Position numbers and translations under genes: made by a program. Source: Rhodovulum tesquicola (GTDB lineage: Bacteria; Pseudomonadota; Alphaproteobacteria; Rhodobacterales; Rhodobacteraceae). Taken from it: a DNA stretch of 64,000 bases. Each line of letters opens with the position of its first letter. The stretch's first letter is position 1. The notes beneath the pieces were generated by a model. The model worked only from the letters and a program-made list of their open reading frames with translations, was not told the origin of the DNA and did no database searches. The DNA is taken from contig NZ_JAMYDV010000009.1 in assembly GCF_024128855.1 (NCBI RefSeq), forward strand, positions 1-64,000, given 5' to 3'. Positions 44,065 to 48,555 of the stretch are shown here, piece by piece.

Positions 44065-44550
44065 TCAATTCGCGGGCGGTGCCTTGCGGATATCGCCGAG
44101 ATCCAGCACAGGCGCCACGTCCAGATGCCCCGCATCCAGAAGCCCCGCCACCCTTTCCAGCGCAGCGACCAGCATTGCCTGCTCCCAGTCGGGTAACGCC
44201 TCGAAGGCGGCGACATAGCGGTCGTGCAGCGGGTCAGGCGCGCGCGCGATGGCCTCGCGCCCGGCCTCGGTCACGAAGATGTTCATCTGACGGCGGTCGG
44301 CCTCCGAGCGGCGGCGCTCGACCAGGCCCTTTGCGACCAGCCGGTCGATCAGCGTGGTCATCGTGGGCTGCGACACCCCCATCCGCGCCGAAATTGCCTT
44401 GGGCGTGCTCTGCCCGGTCTCGGCCACGATCTGCAACACGCGGATCTGCACCGGAGTCAGTCCGGCGGCACGCGCCAGGTCGCGCCCGTAAAGCTCGGTC
44501 GCGCGCAGGATGCGGCGCAGGGCGATCAGGCTGACATCGGACCGTTTCAC
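44065..44550 (-). CDS. ectR: MarR-family transcriptional regulator, probable repressor of the ectoine operon
   Basis: 161 residues with a MarR-type winged helix: helix-turn-helix at [24 protein letters not shown] and wing [21 protein letters not shown]. It is encoded back to back with ectABC-ask, the position of EctR regulators in halophilic and methylotrophic bacteria. The GTG at 44550 follows GGAGG four bases earlier and is preferred over an ATG twelve codons upstream (44586), though spacing is short. Inverted repeats overlapping its own ribosome site suggest autoregulation. Confidence 0.85.
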
Positions 44551-44559
44551 GACACCTCC

Positions 44560-44630
44560 TTCGACTGACGAAGCGACCGTTCCCACCGATCCGGGCGACT
44601 CGCAAGCGTAATTTTTTCGTCTTACGAAGC
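44560..44630. promoter_or_regulatory. Two near-identical inverted repeats in front of ectR
   Basis: TTCGACTGACGAAGC (44560-44574) and TTCGTCTTACGAAGC (44616-44630) agree at 13 of 15 positions, and both have TTCG...CGAA dyad symmetry. They lie 56 bases apart; the first touches the ectR ribosome site. They look like paired operator sites of a MarR-type dimer, most simply EctR itself. Confidence 0.55.
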
Positions 44631-44634
44631 ATTT

Positions 44635-44648
44635 ATGACACCTGTCAT
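44635..44648. promoter_or_regulatory. Perfect 14-bp palindrome in the ectR-ectA gap
   Basis: ATGACA (44635-44640), CC, TGTCAT (44643-44648). It sits just beyond the second TTCG repeat and differs from it in sequence, so it may be a site for another regulator or part of the ectR promoter region. Confidence 0.4.
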
Positions 44649-44683
44649 CCCATGAACTTGCGTGTATGAACCCAAATATAAGC

Positions 44684-44703
44684 CTATAAATAGCTATTTA
44701 TAG
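44684..44703. promoter_or_regulatory. Perfect 20-bp palindrome, candidate EctR operator for ectA
   Basis: CTATAAATAGCTATTTATAG is identical to its reverse complement. Its core can be read as 8-bp half-sites TATAAATA and TATTTATA with a 2-bp spacer, the layout I recall for the published EctR1 operator of Methylomicrobium alcaliphilum. It ends 38 bases before the candidate ectA -35. The last five bases and what follows (TATAGCGTC) recur at the -10 element (44767-44775). Confidence 0.6.
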
Positions 44704-44741
44704 CGTCATCAATCCAGAAATCTCCCCACAAACTTAGCCTG

Positions 44742-44770
44742 TTGAAATTTCTTTTGACTAACTATATATA
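44742..44770 (+). promoter_or_regulatory. Candidate ectA promoter
   Basis: TTGAAA (44742-44747), 17-base spacer, TATATA (44765-44770). This is a near-consensus sigma70 pair, rare in this GC-rich DNA. The -10 lies inside a short palindrome CTATATATAG (44762-44771), so a repressor bound there would block it. The ectA ATG is 30 bases downstream of the -10. Confidence 0.6.
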
Positions 44771-44800
44771 GCGTCGCAACAGGACGGAGGACAGATCATC

Positions 44801-45340
44801 ATGGTCGAGACCATCGAAGCGAAACCGCTCTCTCGCACCGCGCCCATCACCTTCCGCCGCCCCACCGGGGCGGATGGCGAGGCGGTTTGGGCGCTGATCC
44901 GGGCGTGCAAGCCGCTCGACGAAAACTCGCTCTACTGCAACCTGATCCAATGCGATCACTTCGGCGACACATGCATCCTTGCCGAGATCGAGGGGCAGGT
45001 CGTGGGCTGGATCTCGGCCTATCTGCTGCCCTCCGACCCCGAGACGCTGTTCATCTGGCAGGTGGCCGTGTCCGGCCGCGCGCGCGGACGCGGACTCGGC
45101 CGCAAGATGCTGTTCGCGCTTCTCGAACGCGACGCCTGCGCTGGCGTGATGCGGCTTCAGACCACGATCACGCCGGACAATGACGCCTCCTGGGGACTGT
45201 TCCGTGGCGTGGCCCGCCGCTTGGGCGCGCGCCTCACGGACAAGCCGCATTTCACGCGCGATGACCATTTCGGCGGCCGCCACGCGACCGAGCACATGGT
45301 CACGATCCGGCTGGCCGAAGCGCTGCCGCTGGCCGCCTGA
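44801..45340 (+). CDS. ectA: L-2,4-diaminobutyrate acetyltransferase
   Basis: 179 residues, a GNAT acetyltransferase that makes N-gamma-acetyl-2,4-diaminobutyrate, the second step of ectoine synthesis. The acetyl-CoA loop is QVAVSGRARGRGLGRKM. The family-specific region DENSLYCNLIQCDHFGDTC is intact, as is the C-terminal DDHFGGRHATEHM. First gene of ectABC-ask, behind a GGAGG site ten bases upstream. Confidence 0.95.
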   Translation: MVETIEAKPLSRTAPITFRRPTGADGEAVWALIRACKPLDENSLYCNLIQCDHFGDTCILAEIEGQVVGWISAYLLPSDPETLFIWQVAVSGRARGRGLGRKMLFALLERDACAGVMRLQTTITPDNDASWGLFRGVARRLGARLTDKPHFTRDDHFGGRHATEHMVTIRLAEALPLAA

Positions 45341-45384: not shown

Positions 45385-46671
45385 ATGTCGACTGTTCCGA
45401 CAGCCGAAACCGACATCTACGCGCGCCGCGAATCCGCCGTGCGCTCCTATTGCCGCAGCTTTCCGGTCAGCTTCGCCCGCGCCGAGGGCGCAACCCTGAT
45501 CGATGCCGACGGCAATTCCTATATCGACTTCCTCGCAGGCTGTTCCTCGCTGAACTATGGCCATAACGACCCCGACATGAAGGCCGCGCTGGTCGAGCAT
45601 ATCCAGCGCGACGGGATCGCGCATGCGCTCGACATGCATACCGAGGAAAAGGCCGCCTTCCTCGCGGCCTTCGAGCACCATATCCTGCATCCGCGCGGGA
45701 TGGAGCATCGCGTGATGATGACCGGCCCTACCGGCACCAACGCGGTCGAGGCCGCGCTCAAGCTGGCGCGCAAGGTCACGGGACGGCGCAACGTGATCGC
45801 CTTCACCAACGGTTTCCACGGCATGACGCTGGGCGCGCTCGCTCTGACCGGCAATGCGGGCAAGCGCGCGGGCGCGGGCACCGCCCTGCCCGACGTGACG
45901 CATCTGCCCTACGAAAACAGCATGGGCGAGGACGTGGACACGCTGGAGTTGATCGAGACGCTGCTCACGAACCCCTCGTCCGGGATCGAGCCCCCCGCGG
46001 CCTTCGTCGTGGAACTGGTGCAGGGCGAAGGCGGGCTGAACGCCGCCTCCTGCGAATGGGTGCAGGGCATCGCGCGGATCGCCCGCGAACACGGCGCGCT
46101 GCTGATCGTCGACGACATCCAGGCCGGGATGGGCCGCACCGGCAGTTTCTTCAGCTTCGACCACATGGGCATCGAACCCGACATGGTGACGCTGGCGAAA
46201 TCGCTGTCGGGGTTCGGCCTGCCCTTTGCCTGCGTGCTGGTCCGGCCCGAACACGACATCTGGAAACCGGCCGAGCATAACGGCACCTTCCGCGGCAACA
46301 CCCATGCCTTCGTGACCGCCCGCGTCGCGCTGGAGAAGTTCTGGGCCGACGACACGCTCAGGAACCAGATCGCGCTGAAATCCCAGGTTCTGGAAGAACG
46401 GCTGAACACGATCGCCGCCCGGATCGAGGGCGCGCGCCTCAAGGGACGCGGCATGATGCGCGGCGTCGATGTCGGCTCGGGCGAACTTGCCGGCCGGATC
46501 TGCGCCGAAGCCTTCCGCCATGGCCTCGTGATCGAGACCTCGGGCGCCCATGACGAGGTGGTCAAGGTGCTCGCCCCCCTCACCATCCCGATGGAGCAGT
46601 TCCGCCAGGGTCTCGACATCCTGGAGGCGGCGGTGGAGACGCTCGTCCCTTTCCCGGTGGCGGCGGAGTAG
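45385..46671 (+). CDS. ectB: Diaminobutyrate--2-oxoglutarate transaminase
   Basis: 428 residues, a PLP-dependent class III aminotransferase that converts aspartate semialdehyde to 2,4-diaminobutyrate with glutamate as amino donor. The PLP-binding Lys is K272 in TLAKSLSG, preceded by the cofactor Asp region LLIVDDIQAGMGRTG. Also visible are MMTGPTGTNAVEAALKLAR and NTHAF. Forty-four bases after ectA and four before ectC. Confidence 0.96.
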   Translation: MSTVPTAETDIYARRESAVRSYCRSFPVSFARAEGATLIDADGNSYIDFLAGCSSLNYGHNDPDMKAALVEHIQRDGIAHALDMHTEEKAAFLAAFEHHILHPRGMEHRVMMTGPTGTNAVEAALKLARKVTGRRNVIAFTNGFHGMTLGALALTGNAGKRAGAGTALPDVTHLPYENSMGEDVDTLELIETLLTNPSSGIEPPAAFVVELVQGEGGLNAASCEWVQGIARIAREHGALLIVDDIQAGMGRTGSFFSFDHMGIEPDMVTLAKSLSGFGLPFACVLVRPEHDIWKPAEHNGTFRGNTHAFVTARVALEKFWADDTLRNQIALKSQVLEERLNTIAARIEGARLKGRGMMRGVDVGSGELAGRICAEAFRHGLVIETSGAHDEVVKVLAPLTIPMEQFRQGLDILEAAVETLVPFPVAAE

Positions 46672-46675
46672 GCCC

Positions 46676-47071
46676 ATGATCGTACGCGACTTTCACAAGC
46701 TCAAGGACACGAACCGCGCGGTCTCGGATGCGCAATGGACCTCGGTGCGCATGCTGCTGGCCGATGACGGGATGGGGTTTTCCTTCCACATCACCACGCT
46801 GGCTGCGGGCTCGGACCACACGTTCCACTACAAGCATCATTTCGAGAGCGTCTACTGCATCTCGGGGCGCGGCGCGATCACCGACCTCGCCTCGGGCGAG
46901 ACCTTCGAGATCCGGCCCGGCGTGATGTATGCCCTCGATCAGCACGACCGGCACACCATCCGCGCCGACGAGGATCTGGTGATGGCCTGCTGCTTCAACC
47001 CGCCGGTGACCGGCACCGAGGTGCACCGCGAGGACGGATCCTACGCGCCGGCCGCGGCCCTCGCCGACTGA
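46676..47071 (+). CDS. ectC: L-ectoine synthase
   Basis: 131 residues, a cupin that closes the ring of N-gamma-acetyldiaminobutyrate to ectoine. The start MIVRDFHKLKDTNRAV and the metal/cupin residues in ESVYCISGRGAI, ALDQHDRHTIRA are typical. No ectD hydroxylase gene follows, so the cluster supports ectoine, not 5-hydroxyectoine, from this locus. Confidence 0.96.
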   Translation: MIVRDFHKLKDTNRAVSDAQWTSVRMLLADDGMGFSFHITTLAAGSDHTFHYKHHFESVYCISGRGAITDLASGETFEIRPGVMYALDQHDRHTIRADEDLVMACCFNPPVTGTEVHREDGSYAPAAALAD

Positions 47072-47121: not shown

Positions 47122-48555
47122 GTGACCAAGCATCCCCACACCGTCGAGAAGATCGGCGGCACCTCCATGAGCCGCGTCCACGAATTGTGCGACACGCTCT
47201 TCATCGGCGACCGCGCGGGCGACGCGCTCTATCACCGCGTCTTCGTGGTCTCGGCATTCGCCGGCATCACCAACCTGCTGCTGGAACACAAGAAATCGGG
47301 CGAACCGGGCGTCTATGCGCTGTTCTCCAACGCCGACAACGACCACGGCTGGTCGGACGCGCTGAACCGCGTCGCCGACGCCATGCGCGCCGCCCATGCG
47401 CAGGTTCTGGACCACCCCGGCGACCTCGCCGCCGCCGACGATTTCGTGCGCGACCGCATCGAGGGCGCGCGCTCCTGCCTGATCGACTTGCAACGGCTCT
47501 GTTCCTACGGGCATTTCCGCCTGTCGAGCCATATGGCGGTGATCCGCGAACTCCTCTCGGGCCTCGGCGAGGCGCATTCCGCCTTCGTGACCGCCACGCT
47601 CCTGCGACGCCGTGGTGTCGATGCCCGCTTCGTCGATCTCTCGGGCTGGCGCGACGAGGGCGAGCACAGCCTCGAAGACCGGATCGTGCAGGGAATGCGC
47701 GATGTCGATCTCTCGCGCGAGATGCCCATCGTCACAGGCTATGCCCAATGCGTCGAAGGACTGATGGCCGAATTCGACCGCGGCTATTCCGAGGTGACCT
47801 TCTCGAAACTCGCCGTGCTGACCGGCGCGGCCGAAGCGATCATCCACAAGGAATTCCACCTGTCCTCGGCCGACCCGAAGATCGTGGGCGCGGAAAATGT
47901 CGTGAAGCTGGGCCACACCAATTACGACGTGGCCGACCAGCTCTCGAACATGGGGATGGAGGCGGTCCACCCCAAGGCCGCCAAGATGCTGCGCCAGGCG
48001 GGCATCCCGCTGCGCGTGACCAACGCGTTCGAGCCGCACGATCCGGGCACGCTCATCGACGACGCCGAGGCGGGCGCAGCCCGGGTCGAGATGGTCACCG
48101 GACTCGGCGTCTATGCGCTCGAACTCTTCGAGCAGGACATGGTGGGAGTGAAGGGGTATGATAGCGCCATCCTCGAGGCACTAACACGCCACCGGGTGCG
48201 CATCGTCGCCAAGACCTCGAACGCCAACACGATCACCCATTACCTGGATGCGGGGCTGAAATCGGTGCGCCGGGTCGAACGCGACCTCGCGGCGCGCTAT
48301 CCGACCGCCAGCCTCAAGGCGCGCAACCTCGCCGTGGTGGCCGCGATCGGGCGCGACCTCGCCGGGCTCAGGGTGCTGTCGCGCGGGCTTGCCGCGCTCG
48401 AGTCCGCGGGGATCGACCCCGTCGCCGTCCAGCAGACCACCCGCGACGTGGACGCGCAGTTCGTCGTGCCCCGCGACCGGATGGAGGACGCTATCCGCGC
48501 GCTTCACGCCGTTCTTGTCGAGAACCGCAAGACCGCCCCGCGCCTGGCCGCCTGA
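47122..48555 (+). CDS. ask: Aspartate kinase of the ectoine operon (Ask_Ect)
   Basis: 477 residues from a GTG start (47122). It phosphorylates aspartate to supply the semialdehyde used by EctB. The family motif is TVEKIGGTSMSR instead of the usual KFGGTS, as in Ask_Ect enzymes; the two C-terminal ACT-like regions (VRIVAKTSNANTI; LAVVAAIGRDLAG) follow. A dedicated kinase lets flux enter ectoine outside lysine/threonine feedback. Last gene of ectABC-ask. Confidence 0.92.
   Translation: MTKHPHTVEKIGGTSMSRVHELCDTLFIGDRAGDALYHRVFVVSAFAGITNLLLEHKKSGEPGVYALFSNADNDHGWSDALNRVADAMRAAHAQVLDHPGDLAAADDFVRDRIEGARSCLIDLQRLCSYGHFRLSSHMAVIRELLSGLGEAHSAFVTATLLRRRGVDARFVDLSGWRDEGEHSLEDRIVQGMRDVDLSREMPIVTGYAQCVEGLMAEFDRGYSEVTFSKLAVLTGAAEAIIHKEFHLSSADPKIVGAENVVKLGHTNYDVADQLSNMGMEAVHPKAAKMLRQAGIPLRVTNAFEPHDPGTLIDDAEAGAARVEMVTGLGVYALELFEQDMVGVKGYDSAILEALTRHRVRIVAKTSNANTITHYLDAGLKSVRRVERDLAARYPTASLKARNLAVVAAIGRDLAGLRVLSRGLAALESAGIDPVAVQQTTRDVDAQFVVPRDRMEDAIRALHAVLVENRKTAPRLAA

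Follow-up and report, generated by a model that had tools for sequence, protein, structure and literature searches.

Predicted EctR operators of the form TTNG-N5-CNAA, in tandem at the ectA promoter of Rhodovulum tesquicola and in related ectoine loci

The stretch of DNA analysed here (the window, 64 kb) is part of a 3.5-Mb genome, whose closest named relative by EctA is Rhodovulum steppense (96%). It carries an ectoine cluster in which ectR, a regulator gene, lies divergent from ectA and adjacent to ectABC-ask, an arrangement that is also found in relatives. The genes are as follows.

44065 to 44550, minus strand: ectR, regulator of the MarR family; its likely start is the GTG at 44550, preceded directly by GGAGG
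44801 to 45340, plus strand: ectA, diaminobutyrate acetyltransferase (TIGR02406, 176.7 bits; cut-off 120.6)
45385 to 46671, plus strand: ectB (TIGR02407, 594.2 bits; cut-off 552.2)
46676 to 47071, plus strand: ectC (NF009806, 189 bits; cut-off 128), its start placed from the profile match within a longer ORF
47122 to 48555, plus strand: ask, aspartate kinase of the ect cluster (NF006614, 675.5 bits; cut-off 536)

The ectR product has the MarR winged-helix domain of the EctR group, matching PF12802 (MarR_2) at 64.2 bits against a cut-off of 27 and PF01047 (MarR) at 62.1 bits against 24.6; none of the NCBIfam models reached its own cut-off with this protein. The ectoine hydroxylase family had no match in this genome and equally none in 14 control genomes, so this negative carries no information. 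One genome of the same genus has a second ectA copy (L086, G015:C16:45191-45676) that is 60% identical and has neither a nearby ectR match nor the operator motif described below; that genome also carries an ectR-linked ectA copy.

The ectA loci compared here came from three sources: named genomes (70 loci), the genus, in which 15 of 16 genomes carry ectA, and the family, where 394 genomes were searched and the best 30 matches kept. Each region was defined as the stretch between the ectR and ectA starts. Four loci with both genes in the same direction (L035, L036, L044 and L047) were left out and identical sequences were collapsed, giving 83 regions. These were split by EctR identity (at least 51%) into 61 alphaproteobacterial-type regions and 22 that are mostly from gammaproteobacteria; the 22 include two alphaproteobacteria, L025, with no site at either spacing, and L051, with spacer 4. 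We then enumerated pairs of four-letter half-sites, with at most one inner N and spacers of 0 to 10, and compared their frequencies with those in dinucleotide shuffles. TTNG-N5-CNAA was found in 57 of the 61 alphaproteobacterial-type regions, against a shuffle mean of about 6.5-6.85. The next broad pattern, ANTT-N9-AANT (36 of 61; shuffle mean 8.8), we read as TTNG-N5-CNAA plus one flanking letter per side. With spacer 4, the count in the same set was 11 of 61 (shuffle mean 7.2), whereas in the mostly gammaproteobacterial set TTNG/CNAA half-sites at spacer 4 were present in 19 of 22 regions (shuffle mean 3.4), including that of the alphaproteobacterium L051. One of the 61, L110, lacks a spacer-5 site and has a strict one at spacer 4.

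The motif recurred in a held-out set consisting of 40 further rows of the family search, taken in rank order, from which L131 (contig end) and L141 (no ectR found) were dropped. Among the remaining 38 regions, 31 had the spacer-5 motif (shuffle mean 4.3, maximum 9), and 35 had a best score of at least 9.5 with the matrix described below. By contrast, TTNG-N5-CNAA was present in 0 of 21 ectA loci that have no ectR match in the flank, a control that is looser and partly one of lineage because 17 of the 21 come from other groups, the other four (L086 among them) being alphaproteobacteria. TTNG and CNAA half-sites at spacers 9 and 10 also exceeded shuffles, both in the 61 regions (21 and 19; means about 6) and in the 38 held-out ones (10 and 11; means about 4); outer half-sites would explain this excess only in part. 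Three Roseovarius regions (L014, L019 and L020) are richer in the motif than most, each with three to five strict spacer-5 sites in the ectR-ectA interval. Some deep-branching regions, L021, L169 and L025 among them, have ectR yet show no strict site at spacer 4 or 5, and their EctR may recognise a different motif.

For scoring, we built an EctR matrix from 106 sites in the 60 other regions, leaving the window out of training; scores obtained with it for the training loci are circular. The features between ectR and ectA, including palindromes noted earlier, are listed here with their matrix scores where these apply.

44560 to 44572, no strand assigned: O4, TTCGACTGACGAA, matching the strict motif and lying at the ribosome-binding region of ectR; score 12.8, second in 64 kb
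44616 to 44628, no strand assigned: O3, TTCGTCTTACGAA, strongest candidate EctR operator; score 17.4, best in 64 kb
44635 to 44648, no strand assigned: ATGACACCTGTCAT (ATGACA-TGTCAT), private palindrome with 6-bp arms around CC; in 0 of 60 other regions
44684 to 44703, no strand assigned: CTATAAATAGCTATTTATAG, private 20-bp perfect palindrome with 10-bp arms; in 0 of 60 other regions
44734 to 44746, no strand assigned: O1, TTAGCCTGTTGAA, degenerate candidate EctR site with the -35 box as its right half; score 7.1, identical in sister species L001
44742 to 44747, plus strand: -35 box TTGAAA of the ectA promoter, identified by eye and by conservation, 17 bases before TATATA
44749 to 44761, no strand assigned: O2, TTCTTTTGACTAA, candidate EctR site between -35 and -10 with a degenerate left half; score 11.6, third in 64 kb
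44762 to 44771, no strand assigned: CTATATATAG, palindrome covering TATATA; exact palindrome in 0 of 60 other regions
44765 to 44770, plus strand: -10 box TATATA of the ectA promoter, identified by sequence and conservation

The top four matrix matches of the window, and five of the top seven, fall in the ectR-ectA region, and nothing outside this region in the 64 kb scores 10 or more. Fourth in rank is 44753 (10.6), an overlapping register of the place at 44749, and seventh is 44734, behind two sites within ORFs (20138 and 62318). At the alignment position of O3, all 16 regions with EctR more than 80% identical, the window included, have TTNG-N5-CNAA. The position of O2 holds a strict site in 7 of these 16 close regions and one with a broken left half in the rest. 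O1 and O2 in the window are each one letter off the strict pattern; they lie next to each other across the -35 box and the spacer, and had been overlooked in the initial annotation. TTNG/CNAA operator-like sites lie at the ectA promoter, as degenerate sites in the window and as full sites in relatives. In an alignment of the 16 regions, the conserved blocks, by mean identity to the window, are O1 (0.86), the -10 region (0.77), O2 (0.73) and O3 (0.67); conservation is poor at O4 (0.33 against the 15 nearest relatives) and at the ATGACA palindrome (also 0.33), and likewise at the 20-mer (0.37) and its surrounding spacer (0.34-0.37). We trust O4 less than O3, and it is probably a weak, private or accidental extra site. 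The ectR leader (44573-44615; block mean identity 0.53) has words common to most of the 16 regions (GCAAG and CACCAA-like) that are neither an operator nor an obvious promoter.

An automatic promoter and terminator scan of 44480-44830 returned nothing, including no sigma-70 site; TTGAA[AG] is present in 16 of 16 close regions, and we used it as a promoter anchor. It was found in 73 of 99 mapped regions, the 26 without it being left unclassified; L080 was reassigned by hand, the script having taken a later TTGAAA. TTNG lies exactly 8 bases upstream of the anchor in 52 of the 73 promoters, whereas any other offset in the range 4-21 gives 0-8 of 73. Thus, the -35 box is itself half of a putative operator. 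In 20 of the 73 promoters a second candidate operator lies 15 bases beyond the first, counted from the start of the first, and in 42 of the 73 it lies 33-36 bases beyond; no promoter has both, and 11 have neither placement at the threshold used. The 15-base class comprises 15 of the 16 close regions together with L096, L097, L088, L091 and L105; L002, whose site scores low, is the close region missing from it. All 20 classifiable held-out regions have the 33-36 arrangement, and five anchored ones have neither. On a quick EctR tree, the placement classes need one change and the spacer lengths two. Because many of its branches are poorly supported and it gives no direction of change, the tree describes clustering and not a dated event.

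The initial annotation had drawn attention to five palindromes between ectR and ectA. All five are where it placed them, and the region is indeed the ectR-ectA control region, with operator-like sites both over the promoter and upstream. The description of the palindromes as unrelated fails for the two TTCG-CGAA repeats (44560 and 44616), which are two copies of one motif, since a matrix trained without the window ranks both at the top. AGCGTC occurs at the end of both AT-rich palindromes (44702-44707 and 44770-44775), its first two letters being the palindromes' own last two. In dinucleotide shuffles of 44551-44800, a perfect palindrome with arms of at least 10 appeared in 1 of 2000, and at least two perfect palindromes of at least 10 bp appeared in 22 of 1000. 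A 17-nt near-repeat, TAGCTATTTATAGCGTC and TAACTATATATAGCGTC, shares 15 of 17 letters, was equalled in 1 of 500 shuffles, and ties the 20-bp palindrome to the -10 region. The AT-rich pair is hence above composition, as shuffles rarely match it, and yet private, as neither palindrome occurs in the 60 other regions. The initial annotation named absence from close relatives with EctR as the observation that would refute it; such relatives do lack the 20-mer, the exact CTATATATAG, ATGACA-TGTCAT and the TTCG-CGAA copy at 44560, but not the copy at 44616. The sister species L001 lacks the first three of these, and its EctR equals that of the window except for the start codon (99.4%; identical once the first codon is set to M). 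What is conserved of CTATATATAG is the -10 region CTATAT, found in 12 of 16 close regions (mean letter identity 0.75), and not the palindrome; we therefore rejected CTATATATAG as a conserved operator.

The private palindromes are quite probably non-functional, products of AT-rich drift or of a putative template-switch mutation that copied between the -10 region and the upstream spacer. Their location in a fast-changing spacer, the divergence of the sister species there (60% over the 20 bp) and the letters shared by the pair are all consistent with this, although missing conservation alone is no proof of missing function. It is improbable that they are operators of a second, putative dimeric regulator recruited in this species only. 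Palindromy above shuffles and the motif shared with the -10 region would fit such a regulator; however, the palindromes are in no relative compared, and the flanks at 44649-44683 (0.37) and 44704-44733 (0.34) are conserved as poorly as the 20-mer across 15 relatives. Moreover, with up to two mismatches the 20-mer occurs in none of the 15 other genus genomes searched and once in its own genome, so no regulon is visible. We found no evidence for two regulators or for looping in the ectR-ectA region.

A different alternative concerns the protein: TTNG-N5-CNAA might be the site of another conserved MarR-type protein. Sites of MarR/SlyA proteins resemble one another closely, and the SlyA operator quoted in PMC8070244 (TTAGCAAGCTAA) is very similar, with TTAG...CTAA half-sites alike, a spacer of N4 and different targets. 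We regard this as very unlikely given the presence of the motif with ectR and its absence from loci without ectR, four of which are alphaproteobacterial, and given that all 16 close regions carry a site on the ectR side. Least credible of all is the model first put forward, in which EctR binds the 20-bp palindrome, taken as an EctR1-like 8-2-8 site, and CTATATATAG over the -10 element, possibly with looping: the palindrome and near-repeat are above chance and the palindrome centres are 73 bp apart, which would be near seven helical turns, but the 20-bp sequence is found in none of the 60 relatives, not even in L001 with its matching EctR, has a best EctR-matrix score of -7.6, and lacks the TTNG...CNA core of the EctR1 operator (10 of 18 letters agree), so that it resembles an EctR1 20-bp operator neither in core nor in conservation with ectR. 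The striking 20-bp palindrome is probably the wrong place to look for EctR control, which corrects the earlier finding.

We also scored the genome for sites beyond the ect cluster, covering matches to TTMGN5CKAA and TTNGNNWNNCNAA (69 rows, some duplicates). Among these matches, the best outside the ect region is TTCGACTTGCGAA (score 16.2; G000 C34:18686-18698, L217:3187-3199). It lies 99 bases ahead of the probable start of a gene for a TRAP-type binding protein, with DctQ- and DctM-like ORFs (by eye) following that gene. The best solved relatives of this protein are 3fxb, 3gyy and 2vpn (E 6e-155 to 4e-129), which we take to be the ectoine-binding UehA/TeaA. An EctR-type site thus stands ahead of an ectoine-type TRAP importer in three close species. 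All three have one at -252 or -253 (scores 10.2, 19.4 and 8.1), and two of the three have another at -99 or -100 (16.2 in one, a weak 6.2 in the other). The spacing to the gene agrees across species, although the aligner does not bring the -252 sites exactly into register. Five other genus loci have no such site and eight family loci have none scoring 8 or more. Importer control, if real, is therefore recent and local. As a family-wide rule it was rejected, 13 of 16 importer loci having no upstream site of at least 8 (one of the 13 has a single 7.1 site). The other own-genome matches scoring above 11.6, C14:22116 (11.8) and C26:32566 (12.1), lie inside ORFs and were taken as chance.

EctR1 of Methylotuvimicrobium (Methylomicrobium) alcaliphilum 20Z is likewise a MarR-type repressor encoded next to ectABC-ask. 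Its site reportedly reads TATTTAGT-GT-ACTATATA and contains TTAG-N4-CTAT, which would make it one base tighter than the alphaproteobacterial N5 motif. A 2018 review (PMC5924519) describes EctR1 as a repressor of the ect genes in M. alcaliphilum that occupies the -10 region of an ect promoter and also regulates its own gene. The review adds that ectR of Methylophaga thalassica was not found to be autoregulated, that functional work on EctR had been confined to a few methylotrophs, and that the signal to which EctR responds had not been identified. CosR of Vibrio represses ectABC-asp and solute transporters (PMC7876524), and its consensus, as quoted in PMC8070244, is TTTGA-NN-TCTAA, that is, TTTG-N4-CTAA. 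The CosR half-sites are the same as those of the window motif, which supports the motif independently, with a spacer of N4 instead of N5. A global role in osmotic regulation is described for CosR, whereas here, among the matches scored, sites were found only at ect and, in three close species, at the importer. In the literature searched, subscription papers aside, we found no alphaproteobacterial EctR operator, although one may exist in print. EctR-type control is already known, and the predicted spacer-5 operators and tandem promoter arrangement are what is new here. The spacer in these sites is one base longer than in most gammaproteobacterial sites and that of CosR, and, depending on lineage, 15 bp or about 34 bp separate the second predicted ectA operator from its neighbour; the importer site in three close species is likewise new.

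Judging from sequence comparison, we propose that EctR represses ectABC-ask through the tandem promoter sites and, probably, its own gene through the upstream site, a reading to which we assign a probability of roughly 0.8. By analogy with EctR1 and CosR, EctR would be the protein that binds these sites, represses, regulates its own gene and responds to salt. A MarR-family EctR dimer would occupy copies of TTNG-N5-CNAA. At the ectABC-ask promoter, one dimer would sit on O1 and cover the -35 box, and another, on O2 15 bp downstream, would fill the space up to the -10 box; RNA polymerase would be kept off at low salt by occlusion because the two dimers cover the -35 box and the space to -10. A third dimer, at the upstream O3, would probably repress ectR itself, and high salt would weaken EctR binding. 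EctR may nevertheless not be the salt switch, since salt induction in M. alcaliphilum persists without EctR (PMC5924519, PMC8759281).

The comparison across lineages suggests, at about even odds, that EctR has diverged into two operator geometries sharing their half-site letters, with N5 used by most Alphaproteobacteria and N4 by Gammaproteobacteria and CosR. The ectR-ectA region of the window, like the alphaproteobacterial-type set, uses spacer 5 and is therefore not filed in the N4 class. The two kinds of dimer would be mutually blind, because one spacer base turns the half-sites by about 34 degrees. On the same view, the second promoter operator would have shifted among lineages between two positions, one between -10 and the start, about 34 bp away from O1, and one in the -35/-10 spacer, 15 bp away as in Rhodovulum, and the importer would have been captured recently in three species. 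The one-base spacing difference would be a natural experiment in how MarR dimers choose their sites. Together with its placement and spacing classes, the predicted family-wide operator makes EctR control testable in photosynthetic and marine bacteria.
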